Assembly (NCBI GenBank): GCA_900659855.1
Contig: CAACVI010000052.1
Span: 1 to 64,000, forward strand
DNA from: Candidatus Desulfarcum epimagneticum
GTDB taxonomy: Bacteria; Desulfobacterota; Desulfobacteria; Desulfobacterales; CR-1
Length of the DNA: 64,000 nt
Direction: 5' to 3'
The translations under genes were made by a program, and so were the position numbers. The notes under the pieces are model-generated. The model saw only the letters and a list, made by a program, of their open reading frames with translations. It made no database searches and was not told the DNA's origin. Below, in pieces: positions 2,200 to 10,681 of the stretch. Within the stretch, counting starts at the first letter, position 1. The number at the start of each line of letters is the position of its first letter.

Positions 2200-2276
2200 A
2201 TTCAAAATGCGCAAGGATTTCTTAAGGTCTGTTTTCGGTCCGGACAAAAACCAGATTGTTTAAAGGGAGGCAAGCC

Positions 2277-2843
2277 ATGGAAAAAGAAAAAGAAAAAGTC
2301 GAAAAAGAAAAAAATGACGAGGTCAAAGAAGTCTCTAAGGAAGAAGTGGACAAGCTCATACGCCATCACATGTACAGCGCCTTCGGGATCGGCCTGATCC
2401 CTCTTCCGCTTCTGGATATGGCGGCTTTGACCGGGGTCCAGATCAACCTGGTCAGAAAACTGGCCAAAATGCATGGGGTCCCCTTTTCCAGAGACAAGGT
2501 CAAAAACATTCTGTCCTCCCTGGTGGCGGGGACCGCCTCCACGGCGGTGGGAGCGCGGGCGGCCAGCTATGCGAAGGTCATTCCCATCGTGGGATACAGC
2601 CTCGGCGCGGTTTCCGTGTCCGTCCTGGGGGCGGCGAGCGTTTACGCTGTCGGCAAAGTGTTTAACCAGCATTTCGCCTCGGGCGGGACGTTCTTAAGCT
2701 TTGATTCGGAAAAGGTGAAGGATTATTACTCCAAAATGTTCAAGAAAGGCAAGGAGACGGCGTCTGATATCAAGGCCAAGGTCGGCGGCAAAACAGCCGA
2801 TAAGGGAACGGCCGGGGACAAGGAAAAGGGAAAAGTGGCGTAA
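2277..2843 (+). CDS. DUF697-family protein
   Basis: 188 aa. I chose the ATG at 2277 because GGGAGG lies six bases upstream; a TTG seven codons earlier has no such site. The N-terminus is a highly charged Lys/Glu stretch. After it come hydrophobic segments typical of DUF697 (YcjF-like): GIGLIPLPLLDMAALTGVQ, a central Ala/Gly-rich region, and FASGGTFLSFDSEKVKDYY. The family is found beside GTPases and stress or envelope genes, and its biochemical role is unknown. It is the first gene of a tight operon (4 bp to the SPFH gene) that ends with a clear paralogue at 9612. The C-terminal tail is again lysine-rich. Confidence 0.8.
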   Translation: MEKEKEKVEKEKNDEVKEVSKEEVDKLIRHHMYSAFGIGLIPLPLLDMAALTGVQINLVRKLAKMHGVPFSRDKVKNILSSLVAGTASTAVGARAASYAKVIPIVGYSLGAVSVSVLGAASVYAVGKVFNQHFASGGTFLSFDSEKVKDYYSKMFKKGKETASDIKAKVGGKTADKGTAGDKEKGKVA

Positions 2844-2846
2844 AAC

Positions 2847-3809
2847 ATGTCCGGAAGCGAAGAAAAGGAAGGCGCCGGCGCGGAGAGGAGGGGAGTTTGG
2901 GGAAAAATATCCTCCCTGCCCGGAAGGTGGGGAGCGGGCCTGAGAAGGGGTCTCAAAAAGAACCTGGGACCTTTTATCATCGCGTGCCTTCTCCTTCTTC
3001 TCGCGACGGTGTACATGTTCAACCTGATCGTGTACAGCATCATGCCGGGAGAGGCCGGGGTGTTCTGGAGCCGTTTCACCGGGACCCGGGTGGATCATGT
3101 GTACGATGAGGGGATCAAGCTGGTTTTCCCCTGGAACAAGATTTATGTGTACAACATCCGGATCCAGGAGGTGTCCCCTGAGCTGCATGTGCTGACGAAA
3201 ACCGGTCTGAAGGTCAACCTGTACCTGTCCATCCGCTACGCCCCCAAACGCAAGCTTCTGGGAATGCTTCACCAGCGGGTGGGGCCCGATTATGTCAACA
3301 TCGTCATCATCCCCGAGATCGAGGCCGTGCTGCGTGAGATCATCGGAACCATGGACGCCGAGCAGATTTACACCACCGGCCGGGCGGTGATTGTGGAGGC
3401 CATCAACAAGGCCATTGAGCAGGTGGAGCAGCGCTACATCAATGTGGACGATGTGCTGATCAAAAAAATCGAGCTGCCGAAAAGCGTGGAAAAGACCATT
3501 CGCTTCAAAATTGAGCAGAAACACCTCATTGAGGCCCATGAGTTTATCGTGGAGAGGGAAAAAAAAGAGGCGGAGCGCAAAAGGATCGAAGGGCAGGGCA
3601 TCCGGGATCAGCTCAAGATCATCGCCTCGTCCGTTCCCGAAGGAGAGATACTCACGTGGAAGGGCATCCAGGCCACCCAGGAGATCGCCAAATCCAACAA
3701 CGCCAAGGTGATCATCATCGGCGGCGGCAAGGAAGGGCTGCCCATCATACTCAACGCGGATAACAGCTCGGATAATAACAAATCGGATCATAACGCGGAT
3801 ATTAAATAG
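2847..3809 (+). CDS. SPFH/band 7 (prohibitin-like) membrane protein
   Basis: 320 aa. A basic cytoplasmic leader of about 45 residues precedes one transmembrane helix (about 46-66, FIIACLLLLLATVYMF). The SPFH core follows (about 70-235), then a charged helical region EFIVEREKKEAERKRIEGQG typical of the coiled coil after band 7 domains. SPFH proteins oligomerise and organise membrane microdomains or chaperone membrane complexes. It starts 4 bp after the DUF697 gene and ends 5 bp before the double substrate-binding protein gene, so it is almost certainly co-transcribed. In this context it is a plausible scaffold for the channel-like receptor encoded downstream; that link is inference. Confidence 0.88.
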   Translation: MSGSEEKEGAGAERRGVWGKISSLPGRWGAGLRRGLKKNLGPFIIACLLLLLATVYMFNLIVYSIMPGEAGVFWSRFTGTRVDHVYDEGIKLVFPWNKIYVYNIRIQEVSPELHVLTKTGLKVNLYLSIRYAPKRKLLGMLHQRVGPDYVNIVIIPEIEAVLREIIGTMDAEQIYTTGRAVIVEAINKAIEQVEQRYINVDDVLIKKIELPKSVEKTIRFKIEQKHLIEAHEFIVEREKKEAERKRIEGQGIRDQLKIIASSVPEGEILTWKGIQATQEIAKSNNAKVIIIGGGKEGLPIILNADNSSDNNKSDHNADIK

Positions 3810-3814
3810 GGAAA

Positions 3815-6559
3815 ATGCCTTTTAGCGGACGGATGCGCAAACTTTGCCTTGTTCTGGCCCTGTTCTTCTTTTCGTTTTTTTTGTCCTGGGTTTCGTGTGA
3901 TTCCTACCAGGCCCTGTCCGATGAAAGGGCCGAAAAGGCCAGGGACCCGAACGGCGACATCGTCATCGGGGTGGTGGACTCATCCACCTCGCCCACGCTT
4001 TTTGTCCAGGGGGTGAGGCTGGCCGTTCACACGCTGAATGATCGCGGGGGGATTCTGGGAAGGCCCGTCAAGGCCCTTTTTTACGACGACGAAAACTCCC
4101 TGGAAAAAGGACGGGAAATCGCCCGGAAACTGGCCCAAAATTCCGAAGTCGTCGCGGTGGTGGGGCATCGCTCCTCGGATGTGGCTGTGCCGGTTTCGGT
4201 CACTTACGAAAAAACCGGCCTTCTTTTCATGTCCCACGGCGCTGCGGCGCCGGAGTTGACCCAGTACAACGGGGCCTTCACTTTTCGAAACATTCCTTCG
4301 GACGAGGCGGCCGGGCGCGAGCTGGCGGCCTTTGCCAAACGCGGCGGATACGAAAAAATCGCCATCGTGTTTGACCGCGACTCCCCGGCCAATCGTCTCA
4401 CGGAAATTTTTCACAAGGCGGCGGATGATGTCGGGATCGATATCGTGGCGGAAAAATCCTACTCAAGCTGGGAGACGGATTTCAGGGCCATGATCGCCGA
4501 TATCATGAAGGCGCACACGTTTGACTGCGTGTTCCTGGGCGGGATTTTTCCCGCCGCCGGCCTGATCATCCGGCAGATGAGGGAGATGGGCCTGGACGCG
4601 CCCGTTCTGGGAAGCGATTCCCTGGATTCATCTCAGCTTTGGGAAACCGCCGGAAAAGCGGCGGACGGAACCATTGTGTTCACCGTGTTTGATCCGAGCC
4701 TGTCCGAAACCCCCACCCGGAATTTTGTCAGGGCTTTTAAAGCCAGGTACGGGATTCCCCCGGACACCTGGGCCGCCCAGGGATACGACGCCGTCCAGTC
4801 CGTGGCCGCGGGCATTGAGAAGAGCGGATCGGCCGAGCCCCGGGTGGCGGCCAACGCCATCCGTTTTTCAGGAGACCGGAACGGGGTCGTCGGCCCGTAT
4901 CACCGGGACTGGGACGGGGGAATCTCAGGAAAGACCTTTTTCTTTAAAAAAGTGGAGAACGGGGAATTTAAATTCCTGGAGCGGGATTTGAATCGGAAAA
5001 TCAATTTCTTTGATGTTTCCGAAGAAACCACGTTACGACTGCCCATCCAAAGCGATTTCACCGTCATTGATCCGGGCCTGGCCCGGGATCGCGGCTCCGT
5101 TGAGATCATTGAGCAGCTTTTCGTCCCCCTTGTCGGCCTGGATCCCGCCACAAACGAGACCATTCCGGAGCTTGCCCGGGACTGGACCGTGTCCCCGGAC
5201 GGGAAAATTTTTACTTTCCGGATGCGGCCCGACGCGCTCTGGTCCGACGGAAAACCCCTGACGGCCCATGACGTTCAATGGACCCTCCGCCGTAATATTG
5301 ACCCCAAAACAGGCGCGCCCTATCCCCATTCGCTTTATGTTCTCAAAAACGCCCGCGCCATTCAGAAGGGATGGATTTCGGATGTCTCCAAAATCGGGGT
5401 CCGGGCCATTGACGATTTGACGGTGGAATTCAGCCTGGAAAAAGCGACGCCGCATTTTCCGGCCATGCTTTCTCTCCCGCCCTACCGCCCCCTGCCCCGC
5501 CAGGCCGTTGAAACCCACAAAGGCCGCTGGACCGACCCGGGGCATATTCAGGTCAGCGGCCCTTATCAATTGACGGCCCGGAAAAAGGGCCAGGTGACGA
5601 TTCTGCGGAAAAACCGAAAATATTACGACGCGGATTCGGTTTTAATACCCGGTATCCGGTATTATGTGACGCCGGAAGGCTCTGTGGGGCTTTCCATGTA
5701 CCAGGACGATCAGCTGGATGTCATGGGCGGCGACTATCTTCCGGTTCCGGTGGACGCCCTTTCCAGGATCAGGGCGAGCAGGGACCTGGCCGGCCAGTAT
5801 TCCAGAACGTCCGGCATGGGCGTTTACGCTTACGCGTTTAATGTGAAAAAAACCCCTGTGGACCGACCGTTGGTCCGAAAGGCCATCGCCGCCTGTGTGG
5901 ACCGCGACCTGCTGATCAACCTGGCGGCCAAAGGGGGGCATGCCCCGGCCCGGATGTTCACCCCGCCGGGTCTTTTGAGCAAAGAGGCCGCCGGAAAAAC
6001 CCCATGCGCTGAGTTCAACCCGGTGAATGGAAAAAAATGGCTGGCCCGGGCCGGCTATCCCGGGGGAAAGGGATTTCCGGAACTGACTCTTTTTCACGGC
6101 GCCTCTGAGCCGGACGCGAAAATCGCCAGGGCGCTCCAGGCGTCGTTGAAACATTATTTGAATATCCGCGTCCGTCTGGTTGAGAGGCCGTGGGGCGATG
6201 ACGCGAAGCCGACCCTGTCAAAAGATGTCCCCCATCTGTTTCAGCTTGAATGGAGGGCGGATTATCCCCGTCCCCAGGCGGCCCTTGAAGAATGCTTTGA
6301 TCCTGTGAATTCCTTCAATCCTTCCGGGTGGGTCCATCCGGGATTCGCCGATCTCCTGGAAAGGGCCGGGGAAGCGTCGGATCAAAGGGACATGGATGGG
6401 ATTCTGATTGAGGCGGAGACGATTTTATGCCGGAAAGAATGCGTGGCGGTCCCCATCTATTTCGAAACGGCCCATCACCTGGTGAATCCCAGGGTGGAGG
6501 GCTGGCGTCCCAGCCTCATGGGGGGGCAGCGCATACGGGACTGGAGTTTAAAAAAATGA
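3815..6559 (+). CDS. Fused double periplasmic binding protein (Peripla_BP_6 + SBP_bac_5)
   Basis: 914 aa. The N-terminus has a long hydrophobic signal ending LSWVSCDS; the Cys suggests a lipoprotein, although the lipobox is imperfect. Residues about 45-385 match the branched-chain amino acid/amide type-I binding fold (DIVIGVVDSSTSPTLF, GGILGRPVKALFYDDENS). Residues about 420-905 match family-5 oligopeptide/nickel-type binding proteins (PELARDWTVSPDGKIFTFRM, LWSDGKPLTAHDVQW). Each half is close to full family length, so this is a true fusion and not a fragment. No permease or ABC ATPase gene is nearby. A sensing or ligand-delivery role is therefore more likely than classical uptake (inference). 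Its first half is related to the N-terminal module of the next protein. Confidence 0.85.
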   Translation: MPFSGRMRKLCLVLALFFFSFFLSWVSCDSYQALSDERAEKARDPNGDIVIGVVDSSTSPTLFVQGVRLAVHTLNDRGGILGRPVKALFYDDENSLEKGREIARKLAQNSEVVAVVGHRSSDVAVPVSVTYEKTGLLFMSHGAAAPELTQYNGAFTFRNIPSDEAAGRELAAFAKRGGYEKIAIVFDRDSPANRLTEIFHKAADDVGIDIVAEKSYSSWETDFRAMIADIMKAHTFDCVFLGGIFPAAGLIIRQMREMGLDAPVLGSDSLDSSQLWETAGKAADGTIVFTVFDPSLSETPTRNFVRAFKARYGIPPDTWAAQGYDAVQSVAAGIEKSGSAEPRVAANAIRFSGDRNGVVGPYHRDWDGGISGKTFFFKKVENGEFKFLERDLNRKINFFDVSEETTLRLPIQSDFTVIDPGLARDRGSVEIIEQLFVPLVGLDPATNETIPELARDWTVSPDGKIFTFRMRPDALWSDGKPLTAHDVQWTLRRNIDPKTGAPYPHSLYVLKNARAIQKGWISDVSKIGVRAIDDLTVEFSLEKATPHFPAMLSLPPYRPLPRQAVETHKGRWTDPGHIQVSGPYQLTARKKGQVTILRKNRKYYDADSVLIPGIRYYVTPEGSVGLSMYQDDQLDVMGGDYLPVPVDALSRIRASRDLAGQYSRTSGMGVYAYAFNVKKTPVDRPLVRKAIAACVDRDLLINLAAKGGHAPARMFTPPGLLSKEAAGKTPCAEFNPVNGKKWLARAGYPGGKGFPELTLFHGASEPDAKIARALQASLKHYLNIRVRLVERPWGDDAKPTLSKDVPHLFQLEWRADYPRPQAALEECFDPVNSFNPSGWVHPGFADLLERAGEASDQRDMDGILIEAETILCRKECVAVPIYFETAHHLVNPRVEGWRPSLMGGQRIRDWSLKK

Positions 6560-6593
6560 CGGCGCCGCGAACCGCGCCGGAAACGCTTGGTTT

Positions 6594-8783
6594 ATGAAAA
6601 AAACAATCCTTTGGATATCATTGGCCGCCGTGTCGGCTGTTTTGGCTCTCGCTTTTTTATGGCCGCGTCTTTCCGGTTTTTGGGATCAGGAGGTCTATGT
6701 GGCCCTGGTGGGGGACATGAGCCCCGGCTATGAAATCGGGGAAGACACGGAAAACGCCGTTCGCCTCTGCCTGGATAAAGTCAACCGGGAGGGGGGAATC
6801 AACGGCAGAGAAATTAAACTCCTGGTGTTTGATGACAGGAACGATCCCAAACAGGCCGTCAAGACGGCGTCCCGAATAGCGGAGCGCGATGATATCCTGA
6901 TGGTCATCGGCCACGGATGGGCCCCGGCCTCGGCCGCGGCGGGAAAAATTTATAAGAAATACGGGATTCCCGCCATCACCGGGTCCTCCATGGCCCCGGA
7001 AGTCACCCGGCAAAGCGACTGGTATTTCAGCTCCATCTCCGATTCCGTGTTCACCGGGCGCTATCTGGCTGACTATGTCAAAAGAGCCCTGGGCCAGAGC
7101 GCGGTGTGTCTGGTTGTGGAGGATTCCCCCTATGGAAAGACTTTGTCCGGGGCTTTTGAAAAGGCGGCGAAAAGACTGGACCTGTCCGTCAAAAAAAGAT
7201 GGGAATACAGCCAAATGAGCGTTTCCCTGGACGAGGAATTTTCAAAAATCGCCTCCGAACTCAGGACCGTCCCGGACCCGGGGCTCATCTGCCTGATCGG
7301 CGCCATCGATCACACAGCTCAGATGATTTCGCTTTTGAAAAGCGGCGGAAAAAAATACACCATTTTGACCAGCGACCCTTTCACCCGGGATTCTTTTGGG
7401 TTTTTTCAAAAATTTCCCCGGGAAAAGGCCAGGCCGGGCTATTTTTCAGACGGTGTTTACGCCCTGGGGATTTTTTCCGAGCATATCGCCCATGAAAAGG
7501 CCCACGTGTTCATGAAAGACTACGTGGAGAAGTATGGCAGGAAAACCGGATGGGTCGGCGCCTATTACCATGACGCCGTGTCCGCGGCGGCGGAAGCCAT
7601 GAGGCGGGCGGAAATCCAGGGAAAAGGCCATATTCGAAGGGACCGAAGAGAGATCAAAAAGGCCCTGGAGAGCATGCACAGCGCCGAAACAGGCATAAAA
7701 GGCGTGATGGGGTCCGTCTATTTTGATCAGCACGGGGTGTCAAACAGGCCTTCCCAGGTGGGGTTCTACAAAAACAACAGGGCGCTTCCCGCCTTTATCC
7801 AGCGCCGCCTGCAAGACGGCGCGCCTTCTGAAGATGACGCGGTGGACAAAGCCCTTTCCGGCGAGATCATTTTCGTGGGGGACCGGGTGATGAACAAAAC
7901 CCGGGTGGTGTATTCGGGAATCGACATCAACGAGATTTCCGGCCCGGATCTCGGCGCGTCCGCCTTCCGGGCCGACTTTTACCTGTGGCTCCGCTATAAG
8001 GGGGATTTTAAGGAATGGTCCGATATTGTGTTTCCCAACGCCCTGAGTCTGGTCAAGCTGGGCGATCCCGAGATTCGCAGGGAGGAGGGCGGCGCGACCC
8101 GGGTCCGGTATCACATCAAAGCCGATTTCCGGGCGGATTCCGATTTCCGGAACTATCCCTTTGACCGCCAGGCCCTTAAAATCGCATTCAGGCATAAAAC
8201 CCTCACAAGGGACAGGCTGATTTACATCGCCGACACTTTGGGATTCCCGGACCCCCAAAGGGAGGACTACCCGGACGTGGTCGATATCAAAGGCCGGCAT
8301 GTGGAGAGCCGTTTTTTCGAGGAGCGCATTATCGAAAAACCGTCCGGGGAGGGCATGGGGGAAGATGTGGGAGACGCGGCTCTCTATTCCCAGTGCGAGG
8401 CCAAAATCCTTCTGGCCAAAGACCCCGCGGGGGTCGTGGTCCGGGTTTTTGTCCCCATGTTTTTTTTGCTGGCGGTTTTATACGCCGTCTATTTCATCGG
8501 GGCGGACAAGGCGCTTCTTCGCCTGGTCATTCCCCTTTTTGTGACGGCGGCGGCGGCTTTTTACCATGTCTGGATACTGCTTCACCTGGGAATCGACTAC
8601 GTCACGGATCTTGAATACGCCTATATGGGGATCTACGCCCTGGCGGCGCTGGGTGTGGCGGCGGTTCTGGCCGGCCGTTATTACCACGGGAAAAAGGACC
8701 TCCGAAAAGTCCGTTGGGTGTCATACGCCGGGATCATCGGGCATCCGACGCTGGCCGCGGCCCTTTTCTTTTGGCTGGTCTGA
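6594..8783 (+). CDS. Periplasmic-binding-protein / pentameric ligand-gated ion channel fusion
   Basis: 729 aa. Residues 1-25 are a signal or anchor. Residues about 33-405 are a type-I periplasmic binding domain (VYVALVGDMSPGYEIGEDTE, GGINGREIKLLVFDDRND). Residues about 430-610 resemble the beta-sandwich ligand-binding domain of Cys/Pro-loop channels: FRADFYLWLRYKG and, near 517-526, FRNYPFDRQALKI, equivalent to the conserved FPFDxQ loop. Four hydrophobic helices follow at about 614-636 (with the M1 proline), 643-663, 674-697 and 709-729. That is the M1-M4 pattern, and the M3 start YVTDLEYAYMGIYAL is family-like. The predicted product is a pentameric cation or anion channel with a Venus-flytrap ligand domain stacked outside. 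The ligand and ion selectivity cannot be read from the sequence. Confidence 0.82.
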   Translation: MKKTILWISLAAVSAVLALAFLWPRLSGFWDQEVYVALVGDMSPGYEIGEDTENAVRLCLDKVNREGGINGREIKLLVFDDRNDPKQAVKTASRIAERDDILMVIGHGWAPASAAAGKIYKKYGIPAITGSSMAPEVTRQSDWYFSSISDSVFTGRYLADYVKRALGQSAVCLVVEDSPYGKTLSGAFEKAAKRLDLSVKKRWEYSQMSVSLDEEFSKIASELRTVPDPGLICLIGAIDHTAQMISLLKSGGKKYTILTSDPFTRDSFGFFQKFPREKARPGYFSDGVYALGIFSEHIAHEKAHVFMKDYVEKYGRKTGWVGAYYHDAVSAAAEAMRRAEIQGKGHIRRDRREIKKALESMHSAETGIKGVMGSVYFDQHGVSNRPSQVGFYKNNRALPAFIQRRLQDGAPSEDDAVDKALSGEIIFVGDRVMNKTRVVYSGIDINEISGPDLGASAFRADFYLWLRYKGDFKEWSDIVFPNALSLVKLGDPEIRREEGGATRVRYHIKADFRADSDFRNYPFDRQALKIAFRHKTLTRDRLIYIADTLGFPDPQREDYPDVVDIKGRHVESRFFEERIIEKPSGEGMGEDVGDAALYSQCEAKILLAKDPAGVVVRVFVPMFFLLAVLYAVYFIGADKALLRLVIPLFVTAAAAFYHVWILLHLGIDYVTDLEYAYMGIYALAALGVAAVLAGRYYHGKKDLRKVRWVSYAGIIGHPTLAAALFFWLV

Positions 8784-8814
8784 TGGCCGGGAAGGGCTGA
8801 AAAAGGACGAAAAA

Positions 8815-9615
8815 ATGGAATGGAGCCGACAGGAAAGGCGTGATCTGACGATCGCCCGAAATCTCCTTGAAAGTGGCGGTTTCGCGGGGACCATGGGGAA
8901 CTGGTTCGCCGGCGTCATGGATAAAATTTCAGATCGCTTTCCCCAAAAGTGGCGGGAAATGATTTTGTTTTCCGCTGTTCTGGCCATCGAAAAATCATGG
9001 GAGTTCACGGTGGGCATGATGTCCGGCTCCCATGAGCCTTCCGAGTCCGAGCTGACGCATAAAATCCGCGCCACCATCTCCGGGGCCGCGGGAGGGGTGG
9101 CCATTCCCACTCTTCTCGCGGAAATTCCCGTGACCACCGTCATCATGCTCAGATCCGTGGCCGACATCGCCCGGGAAGAGGGGGAAGACTTCCGGGACAT
9201 CAACTCCGGAATCGCCTGTCTGGAAGTTTTTGCCCTGGGGGGAGAGAAGACCGGGGAGGATGCGGCTGAAACCGGGTATTACAGGACCCGGGACTTTTTG
9301 CAAAGACCTGTGGCGGAGTCGTCGGCTTACATCGCCCAGAAGGGGGCCATCGGGGTGGGGGCGCCGTTTCTGGCCCAGCTGGCGGCGAAAATCGCGGCGC
9401 GTTACCAGACCGCCATTTCGGCCCGCCTGGCGGCCGCGGTGGTTCCGGCGGCGGGCGCCATCTGCGGCGCGGCGGTTAATATTGTGTTCATCGATTATTT
9501 TCAGAAGAAAGCCCGGGGTCATTTTATCATGAGGCGACTGGAAAGAAAGCGCGGCCTTGAGCCGGTCAGACAGGCGTACCAGGAAATCGGGCCGCCGGAT
9601 ACGGAAGCCCCATGA
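8815..9615 (+). CDS. EcsC-family protein
   Basis: 266 aa. I use the ATG at 8815 preceded by AAGGA; the frame is open further upstream but only as overlap with the channel gene. The sequence shows the EcsC pattern: an N-terminal charged region, then ATISGAAGGVAIPTLLAEIP, Ala/Gly-rich hydrophobic helices and a C-terminal VNIVFIDYFQKKARGHF. EcsC proteins are membrane-associated and of unknown biochemistry; in Bacillus the gene lies beside an ABC exporter. The gene follows the channel gene by 31 bp and its stop overlaps the next start (ATGA), so the two are translationally coupled. The function in this operon is unknown. Confidence 0.8.
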   Translation: MEWSRQERRDLTIARNLLESGGFAGTMGNWFAGVMDKISDRFPQKWREMILFSAVLAIEKSWEFTVGMMSGSHEPSESELTHKIRATISGAAGGVAIPTLLAEIPVTTVIMLRSVADIAREEGEDFRDINSGIACLEVFALGGEKTGEDAAETGYYRTRDFLQRPVAESSAYIAQKGAIGVGAPFLAQLAAKIAARYQTAISARLAAAVVPAAGAICGAAVNIVFIDYFQKKARGHFIMRRLERKRGLEPVRQAYQEIGPPDTEAP

Positions 9616-10148
9616 CGCCTCTGGACGTTTCAGATGAAAAGGAACGGCGAAAGGAGCTGGATGATATCCTGAGGCGCCATGTCTGGGCGTCCATGGGCGC
9701 GGGCGTGATTCCCGCGCCGCTTGCGGACATCGCGGCCCTGGCCGCGATTCAGCTTGCCATGATCAAACGGATCGCGGGGTTGTATGAAGCGGATTATTTT
9801 AAAGAATCCGTGGAGAAAATCGCCTCGTCGCTTTTGGGGTACGCGCTTTTCGGAAGCATGGCCCCGGCGGCTTTGAGCGCTCTCAAGGCCATCCCCCTGG
9901 TGGGCCAGGCCATTGGGGCCATGGCCGCCCCGGCCTTCTGCGGCGGCTCCACTTACGCGACCGGTAAGGCCCTGATCATGCATTTTGAAAGCGGCGGGAC
10001 CCTTTTTTCCTTTGACCCTGAGAAAGTGAAGGGGCATTACAAAAAAATGTTTGAGGAAGGCAAACGGTTTGCCAGGGATCTTCAGCATGAGAAGGGAACG
10101 CCGGATACAGATATAATAGAGACGAAAGAGGAATTGAGCAAAAAATGA
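9612..10148 (+). CDS. DUF697-family protein (second copy)
   Basis: 178 aa. It is a paralogue of the protein at 2277: the ordered motifs GAGVIPAPLADIAALAAIQ, a central hydrophobic Ala/Gly region and HFESGGTLFSFDPEKVKGHY match segment by segment. It lacks the long Lys/Glu leader of the first copy. The start overlaps the EcsC stop by 4 bp and its end overlaps the LptE-like start by 4 bp. Two different DUF697 copies bracketing one operon suggest hetero-oligomers or roles on different partners (inference). Confidence 0.8.
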   Translation: MTPLDVSDEKERRKELDDILRRHVWASMGAGVIPAPLADIAALAAIQLAMIKRIAGLYEADYFKESVEKIASSLLGYALFGSMAPAALSALKAIPLVGQAIGAMAAPAFCGGSTYATGKALIMHFESGGTLFSFDPEKVKGHYKKMFEEGKRFARDLQHEKGTPDTDIIETKEELSKK

Positions 10149-10681
10149 AAAAAGAAAACGTCCTGTGGATATGGATACTGCCGGCGGTTTTTCTCGTCTT
10201 TTCATCATGCGGATACCGGTTTTCCGGATCCCGGGACATGGCTTTTGCGAAAAATCCGATCATCATTGAGGTGTTTGAGAACCGGACCATGGAAAACGGG
10301 GCCGGTTTTCTGGCGGCCAACCGTTTCATTGAGGTGTTTTCCCGGCGCGGCGCGGCCGCGGGAGGCGAAAAAGACGCCGGAGCGGCGGATGTGCTGTCCG
10401 GGGTGGTGGAGTCCATGTCCATTTCCACGATTTCGGAAAAAAGCCGCCATCAGCCGTCTGAAAGACGGCTCACCCTTGTTCTTTCACTCACATGGGTGGG
10501 AAAAGACGGAAAAATCCTGTGGCGGGGGAAAAAGATATCCGGGGACCGGGATTACCGGGTGGGCGCCGGGAAGCTGGAAACCGAGCAAAACCGGCGTCGG
10601 GCCGTTTCCGACCTGGCCGGTATCCTCGGGGAAAGGGCGTTTTATATGATGGCCCGGGAGAGCGGGCGGCGCGCCCCCTAA
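10145..10681 (+). CDS. lptE: LptE-like outer-membrane lipoprotein
   Basis: 178 aa. A lipoprotein signal ends FSSCGYRFSG; Cys-Gly-Tyr-Arg-Phe after the lipobox is the hallmark of LptE/RlpB, which plugs the LptD barrel during lipopolysaccharide export. The family mid-region is recognisable (PIIIEVFENRTMENGAGFLA, then ILWRGKKISGDRDYRVG). The start overlaps the DUF697 stop by 4 bp. Finding lptE next to rpsT is common in deltaproteobacteria, so this gene may belong to the ancestral chromosome with the unusual operon placed upstream of it. It overlaps the convergent rpsT end by 4 bp. Confidence 0.75.
   Translation: MKKENVLWIWILPAVFLVFSSCGYRFSGSRDMAFAKNPIIIEVFENRTMENGAGFLAANRFIEVFSRRGAAAGGEKDAGAADVLSGVVESMSISTISEKSRHQPSERRLTLVLSLTWVGKDGKILWRGKKISGDRDYRVGAGKLETEQNRRRAVSDLAGILGERAFYMMARESGRRAP

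Follow-up and report, generated by a model that had tools for sequence, protein, structure and literature searches.

How does a pentameric ligand-gated ion channel (pLGIC) operate when a Venus-flytrap domain stands in front of its extracellular part, and which proteins work with it? The question is raised by one gene in the 64,000-nucleotide stretch of Candidatus Desulfarcum epimagneticum DNA analysed here (the window). The fusion itself has been known since 2004. Amino-terminal type-I periplasmic binding (PBP-I) domains were described on bacterial pLGICs of Magnetospirillum and Bradyrhizobium, and PBP-II genes were noted in conserved neighbourhoods of some bacterial channels, as far as the available text goes (Tasneem et al. 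2004, PMC549065). The original prediction was right that such fusions had been noted before. DeCLIC is described, in the accessible part of a later paper, as the only pLGIC with a partly characterised N-terminal domain (PMC12664993). In this study, we report the conserved gene cassette in which the channel gene lies. The cassette points to co-expressed proteins and to a possible ligand class (peptides, amino acids).

Results

The reading frame of the gene runs from ATG to stop without an internal stop and encodes 729 aa (Table 1). The original prediction had placed a flytrap, a beta-sandwich with the motif FRNYPFDRQ and four helices in this single chain, and the intact frame, Pfam, a sequence profile and a structure model all agreed with it. 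The flytrap scored 125 bits on Peripla_BP_6, a model whose cut-off is 31.7, and its nearest solved structures are LivJ-like (branched-chain) amino-acid binding proteins. The segment FRADFYLWLRYKG occupies residues 458-470. Pfam detected no MS_channel domain in the 729-aa protein, and the piece following the flytrap matched no Pfam family at E 0.1, Neur_chan_LBD and Neur_chan_memb included. The Neur_chan_memb gathering score was passed by six relatives (L046, L080, L094, L011, L092 and L096).

Table 1. Positions in the window of the channel gene, its parts and the neighbouring genes of the run.
Feature	Position	Strand	Evidence
DUF697 protein, first gene of the run	2256..2843	+	Pfam; likewise upstream of SPFH in L107
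SPFH / Band_7 (stomatin-HflK-like) protein	2847..3809	+	Band_7 E 2.6e-23
Partner: PBP-I + SBP_bac_5 (OppA-like) double binding protein, 914 aa	3815..6559	+	Pfam
PBP-I / pLGIC subunit, 729 aa	6594..8783	+	ORF, Pfam, profile, AlphaFold2 model, Foldseek, VIA-align
N-terminal hydrophobic segment, putative signal peptide or uncleaved anchor	6594..6683	+	sequence reading alone, no predictor
Type-I periplasmic binding (Venus flytrap) domain, residues 34-382	6693..7739	+	Peripla_BP_6 E 7.2e-36
pLGIC extracellular beta-sandwich, about residues 425-610	7866..8423	+	profile, model, Foldseek
Pro-loop FRNYPFDRQ, residues 518-526, proline P522	8145..8171	+	alignment
M1-M4 helices, residues 611-728; M2 pore helix 637-664	8424..8777	+	profile, model, alignment
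EcsC-family protein	8815..9615	+	EcsC E 8.8e-20; scanned from 8803, first in-frame ATG 8815
Second DUF697 protein	9612..10148	+	Pfam
LptE-like protein, last gene of the run	10145..10681	+	LptE E 7.3e-07, over cut-off

Searched as a single sequence, the channel half reached GLIC weakly (E 0.04). A profile of 17 sequences, comprising the window and 16 of the 21 four-TM relatives from genomes of the order, aligned from the Pro-loop to M4 with ELIC entries (E 4e-15 to 1e-12) and with GLIC (E about 1e-10), and matched a chimeric construct carrying ELIC extracellular sequence at E 1e-16. ELIC and GLIC are two of the three channels with which the original prediction had proposed a comparison, and these E-values make the pLGIC match far better than chance. 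The AlphaFold2 model of residues 400-729, built on 50 sequences, had a mean pLDDT of 86.6 and consisted of a beta-sandwich followed by four helices (M1 611-634, M2 637-664, M3 667-699, M4 703-728). Foldseek aligned it with GABA-A receptors, GLIC and GluCl at E 1e-16 to 5e-15, with a probability of 1.00 in the 50 matches listed; the TM-scores to single pLGIC chains among them were moderate (0.53-0.62). VIA-align gave Z 18.8-19.6 over 271-280 residues to GluCl, the glycine receptor, GABA-A, the nicotinic receptor and GLIC. The predicted fold, on which the original prediction had staked its claim, matches pLGIC structures.

Profile and predicted fold identify the window protein as a pLGIC subunit that carries a flytrap at its N-terminus. 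Its sandwich and four helices are homologous to those of known Pro-loop (ART-LGIC) members, and the type-I binding domain stands N-terminal to the LBD and four TM segments in one chain, as in the PBP-I/ART-LGIC fusions. The Pro-loop proline P522 was kept in 50/50 channel-type sequences. One of the two patterns used for retrieval contained PF, which favours this count, but 21/21 other channel-type rows also carried the proline in a set assembled pattern-free. This proline is called the sole absolutely conserved residue of the motif in the family, in the part of that report available (PMC4795631).

When the whole 729-aa protein was used as a single sequence to scan genome contigs, no relative was retrieved. 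The channel half detected one copy of the gene in the source genome and a match in 11 of the 57 other genomes of the order (12/58 with the source genome). In a drawn sample of the phylum, 24/395 genomes, the source genome included, had a channel match at E 1e-10. Of the 28 other channel matches in the sample, 21 lay in open frames that, at 344-431 aa, leave no room for a flytrap. Named genomes scanned with sequence patterns yielded 66 loci, four of which (L071, L095, L097, L102) were dropped as partial, broken in frame or cut by a contig end. The 62 classed loci fell into three groups: sandwich plus four TM segments (42), four TM segments with SBP_bac_1 following M4 (7), and MscS pore (13); Pfam confirmed SBP_bac_1 in 7/7 and MS_channel_2nd with cNMP_binding in 13/13. 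Three of the 42 (L098, L100 and L101, the last scanned from its first Met) had no recognised flytrap. Record titles named Desulfobacterales, other deltaproteobacteria, Thiotrichaceae, cyanobacteria, Chloroflexota, Verrucomicrobia and others.

The seven SBP_bac_1 fusions (L046, L061, L068, L080, L092, L094, L096; about 1200-1300 aa, L092 cut at its 5' end) tie channel and PBP-II together a second time. One channel-type relative (L027) continues into cadherin repeats, has a weak Peripla_BP_4-like start below the cut-off and ends at a contig end. Nine matches on Azospirillum plasmids (H1-H9) covered 69-73% of the query, that is, PBP-I and part of the sandwich; the gene of H2 is annotated as an ABC transporter substrate-binding protein.

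The channel gene belongs to a run of seven genes on one strand (2256-10681). Four of the junctions are gaps (3, 5, 34 and about 31 bases), and at the other two the genes overlap by 4 bases. A promoter/terminator scan around the run gave no useful boundary. The best NCBIfam model for the partner gene was OppA PRK15104 (E 2.5e-50, below that model's cut-off), and its SBP_bac_5 half supplies the PBP-II partner seen near some known channels. Genes for SPFH, PBP-I/SBP_bac_5 and channel follow one another in this order at 10 further loci, spread over 8 other genomes (L103-L110, L037, L040). The context of the gene, called uncharacterised in the original prediction, is therefore a conserved cassette. 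Seventeen stretches were compared and 10 had the full order; L048 is the same locus as L106, the L039 stretch ends before the SPFH position, and five others (L042, L053, L059, L063, L111) have a partner with the SBP_bac_5 half only, downstream in L059, and no SPFH gene within the stretch. At the ten loci, identity to the window was 51-71% for SPFH and 44-53% for the two halves of the partner; for the sandwich and TM part it was 29-36% at the cassette loci whose stretch includes that part, so the channel seems to be the fastest-evolving member.

Partner and channel also occur together. With the 15 best first-look candidates scored per genome, a full-length partner was found in five of the 57 genomes of the order (G006, G011, G018, G032, G039), and a channel match running to M4 was found in the same five. 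The chance of this coincidence is 2.4e-7 under independence, kinship being ignored. These genomes hold 13 full-length partner copies, one split over two frames; 12/13 share a contig with a channel-half match, and on one contig bearing a partner copy (G039:C352) there is a sandwich match only. In the flanks, which reached up to 6 kb and were often shortened by contig ends, a window-like SBP_bac_5 gene was present at 16/49 four-TM loci versus 0/13 MscS-type loci. Because such a gene is missing from the flanks of the other 33/49 four-TM loci, and SPFH from the stretches of the five SBP_bac_5-only loci, we consider that the cassette belongs to one branch and not to all channels of this type.

Two tandem channel genes are present in 6/10 cassette stretches, those of L105 and L106 ending inside the first channel gene. 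Tandem paralogues were seen in L103, L104, L107-L110, L039 and L048, and there is one copy in the source genome. They could mean that heteromeric channels are formed in the relatives. Two DUF697 proteins and one EcsC protein flank the SPFH and channel genes in the window, and DUF697 lies near SPFH in L071. Beside the cassette, 615-2135 on the minus strand encodes leucine-rich repeats and two Flg_new_2 (InlB-B-repeat-like) stretches. A literature search returned no description of an SPFH/channel cassette among its best matches, of which the 2004 study of Tasneem et al. and the DeCLIC papers were the pertinent ones; preprints and much subscription literature lay outside its coverage, which makes this weak evidence of absence. 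The cassette is the part of the system for which we found no description.

In the 13 MscS-type loci, PBP-I and a pLGIC-type sandwich are followed by MS_channel and cNMP_binding domains. PBP-I was identified by Pfam on two whole proteins (L087, L013) and by alignment in all 13. In the set found without sequence patterns, 7/7 MscS-type members (L013, L015-L018, L024, L033) carried MS_channel_2nd and 4/7 had a cNMP match. Altogether, the combination of PBP-I, sandwich and MscS was seen in L013, L015-L018, L024, L033, L076, L077, L081-L083, L086-L091, L093 and L099; L015, L017 and L033 gave no cNMP match, and the others carry a C-terminal cNMP-binding domain. L024 and L093 are the same gene reached twice, and L014 was left out of the MscS count since its contig ends before the pore and it gave no Pfam match.

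A tree built from 63 sandwiches placed all 13 MscS-type rows on one side of a branch with support 98/93, requiring one change of pore type, and left L098, L100 and L101 outside this branch. The tree favours a single replacement of the pLGIC pore by an MscS pore, but its direction is not proven because the tree is unrooted, its base is poorly split and its outer rows are long-branched. The Pro-loop proline was found in 1/13 MscS-type rows, and in 2/7 in the pattern-free MscS-type rows (L099, L015 and L033; in L013 it stands one position earlier). Present in all channel-type rows and in few MscS-type rows, the proline goes with the pLGIC pore. MscS-type sandwiches matched the window's channel half by tblastn with E-values of 3e-15 to 6e-25, for which candidate stretches alone served as the search space. 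An MscS-type model was of low confidence (pLDDT 73, pTM 0.41); its top structure matches were MscS channels (E 2e-13), and GLIC came further down (E 8e-10, rmsd 19). The tie of these sandwiches to pLGICs thus comes from the tblastn matches and the weaker model.

Aligned with its relatives, M2 of the window protein reads L-2', L-1', R0', V2', P4', F6', A9', F13', V16' and L20', in prime numbering assigned by alignment. The original prediction saw no charged ring in M2. This holds at -2' and -1', both Leu; at 0' there is an Arg, common to 28/50 channel-type sequences. Since R0' is present and no acid lies near -1', the pore would more probably be anion-selective or weakly selective than cation-selective. 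Positions 2' and 6' are more apolar than in most relatives, and the common 9' Leu (27/50) and 23' Pro (35/50) are missing.

In LivJ, S79 and T102 presumably form the Ser/Thr pair that binds amino acids. This pair sets LivJ-like amino-acid binding proteins apart from the window protein, which has Ala110 and Met133 at the aligned positions. Among 59 relatives (L098, L100 and L101 left out), 44 have Ser/Thr at both positions, and both are missing only in L045, L077 and L096. Having lost both contacts, the flytrap may bind a ligand other than an alpha-amino acid.

Discussion

We propose, with a probability of roughly 0.6, that the window protein is a subunit of an inner-membrane pentameric Pro-loop channel whose gate would be controlled by its extra periplasmic flytrap domain, together with an OppA-like co-receptor and an SPFH scaffold. 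A small molecule would close the PBP-I domain, and the movement would be passed to the pLGIC beta-sandwich below and, via the Pro-loop and the M2-M3 loop, would open the M2 pore. The 914-aa partner might act as a second receptor that captures peptide or amino-acid ligands and either docks on the channel or hands the ligand over to it. The SPFH protein might keep this assembly together in one patch of the membrane. In animals, stomatins are partners of some ion channels.

The side result of this analysis that surprised us most is the group of relatives with an MscS pore. PBP-I and the pLGIC sandwich might constitute a self-standing gating module for two unrelated pores, carried by a pLGIC pore and, after one swap, by a heptameric MscS pore with a cytoplasmic cyclic-nucleotide domain; in the sulfate-reducer branch, the pLGIC version would be a fixed three-part device with a double-flytrap co-receptor and a stomatin-like scaffold. 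We hold this view tentatively, at somewhat less than even odds. When the profile was built from nothing but the 13 MscS-type sandwiches, it found no solved structure at E 1, which counts against the module swap, as do the low confidence of the MscS-type model and the proline kept in some MscS-type rows. If the module reading is true, MscS channels with the sandwich would be ligand-gated, and a sensor moved between pLGIC and MscS pores would make it possible to test directly which elements such a module needs. Desulfonema magnum is a named genome that offers both the cassette (L103) and an MscS-type relative (L087). The best matches of a literature search held no description of a PBP-I/sandwich/MscS fusion, which is weak evidence of absence since preprints and much subscription literature were outside its coverage.

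The pairing of PBP-I and sandwich also bears on where the agonist acts. It might bind the pLGIC beta-sandwich, with PBP-I only concentrating or delivering it, or only modulating gating like the N-terminal domain of DeCLIC. A concentrating or delivering role was proposed by Tasneem et al., in the portion of their paper available (2004, PMC549065). However, MscS pores bear the two domains together, as would be expected of a coupled sensor module rather than of an optional concentrator, and we regard an agonist site on the sandwich, with PBP-I in either of these lesser roles, as unlikely.

It is also conceivable that the pLGIC fold was kept while conduction was lost, the protein serving as a receptor scaffold, signal relay or non-conducting subunit with its output through the SPFH, EcsC or DUF697 proteins. 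The peculiarities of M2 (apolar at 2' and 6', no 9' Leu, no 23' Pro) suggest that conduction could be poor or lost. Apolar residues at 13', 16' and 20', Pro at 4' and the missing pocket Ser/Thr point the same way, as do the long end branch of the window row in the sandwich tree (1.16 against a median of 0.42) and its single copy where relatives often have two tandem paralogues. However, the window differs at only 6/36 strongly conserved channel columns, tied 11th to 13th of 50 rows, so the gene has not decayed; it retains the Pro-loop, R0' and H15', and its ORF is intact. A non-conducting role is improbable in our judgement, and a conducting channel under flytrap control is the reading that we retain.

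A chemotaxis role, in which ion flux through the channel steers motility, was suggested for bacterial pLGICs in 2004 (PMC549065, in the text available), but is disfavoured for the source organism and in our view very remote, because its 99.7% complete genome gave no CheW or Flagellin_N match at E 0.001, whereas 7 and 4 of 14 named control genomes did; the motility search covered CheW and Flagellin_N. A defence system was also considered and rejected, PADLOC giving only marginal PDC-S29 matches (EcsC, DUF697). The same goes for an ordinary binding protein of an ABC transporter, since the eight proteins scanned included neither a permease nor an ATPase.

Among known systems, ELIC and GLIC share homology and fold of the LBD and TMD with the window protein but have no N-terminal flytrap. 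They have an acidic M2 residue near -1'/-2', where the window protein has Leu. The MscS-type relatives resemble bCNG channels, which are MscS-type channels with a cyclic-nucleotide domain; relatives of the sensor half of the window protein are fused to such a pore, whereas the window protein itself has a pLGIC pore. The fusions of Tasneem et al. share the amino-terminal PBP-I domain before a sandwich and four helices, with PBP-II genes nearby, but in the window the partner is itself a fusion of PBP-I with an OppA-like half and is preceded by an SPFH gene, as far as the available text allows the comparison (PMC549065); the words stomatin, SPFH, band 7, mechanosensitive and MscS are absent from its main text. 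DeCLIC, a pLGIC likewise of deltaproteobacterial origin, also has an additional periplasmic part at its N-terminus, but that part consists of two jelly-roll lobes according to the accessible sections (PMC9897478, PMC12664993), in contrast to Peripla_BP_6 here. The ionotropic glutamate receptors also bear a flytrap at the channel N-terminus and may be alike in working, by analogy, although they have another pore and a second, split flytrap around it, as described in the part of the 2004 paper available (PMC549065).
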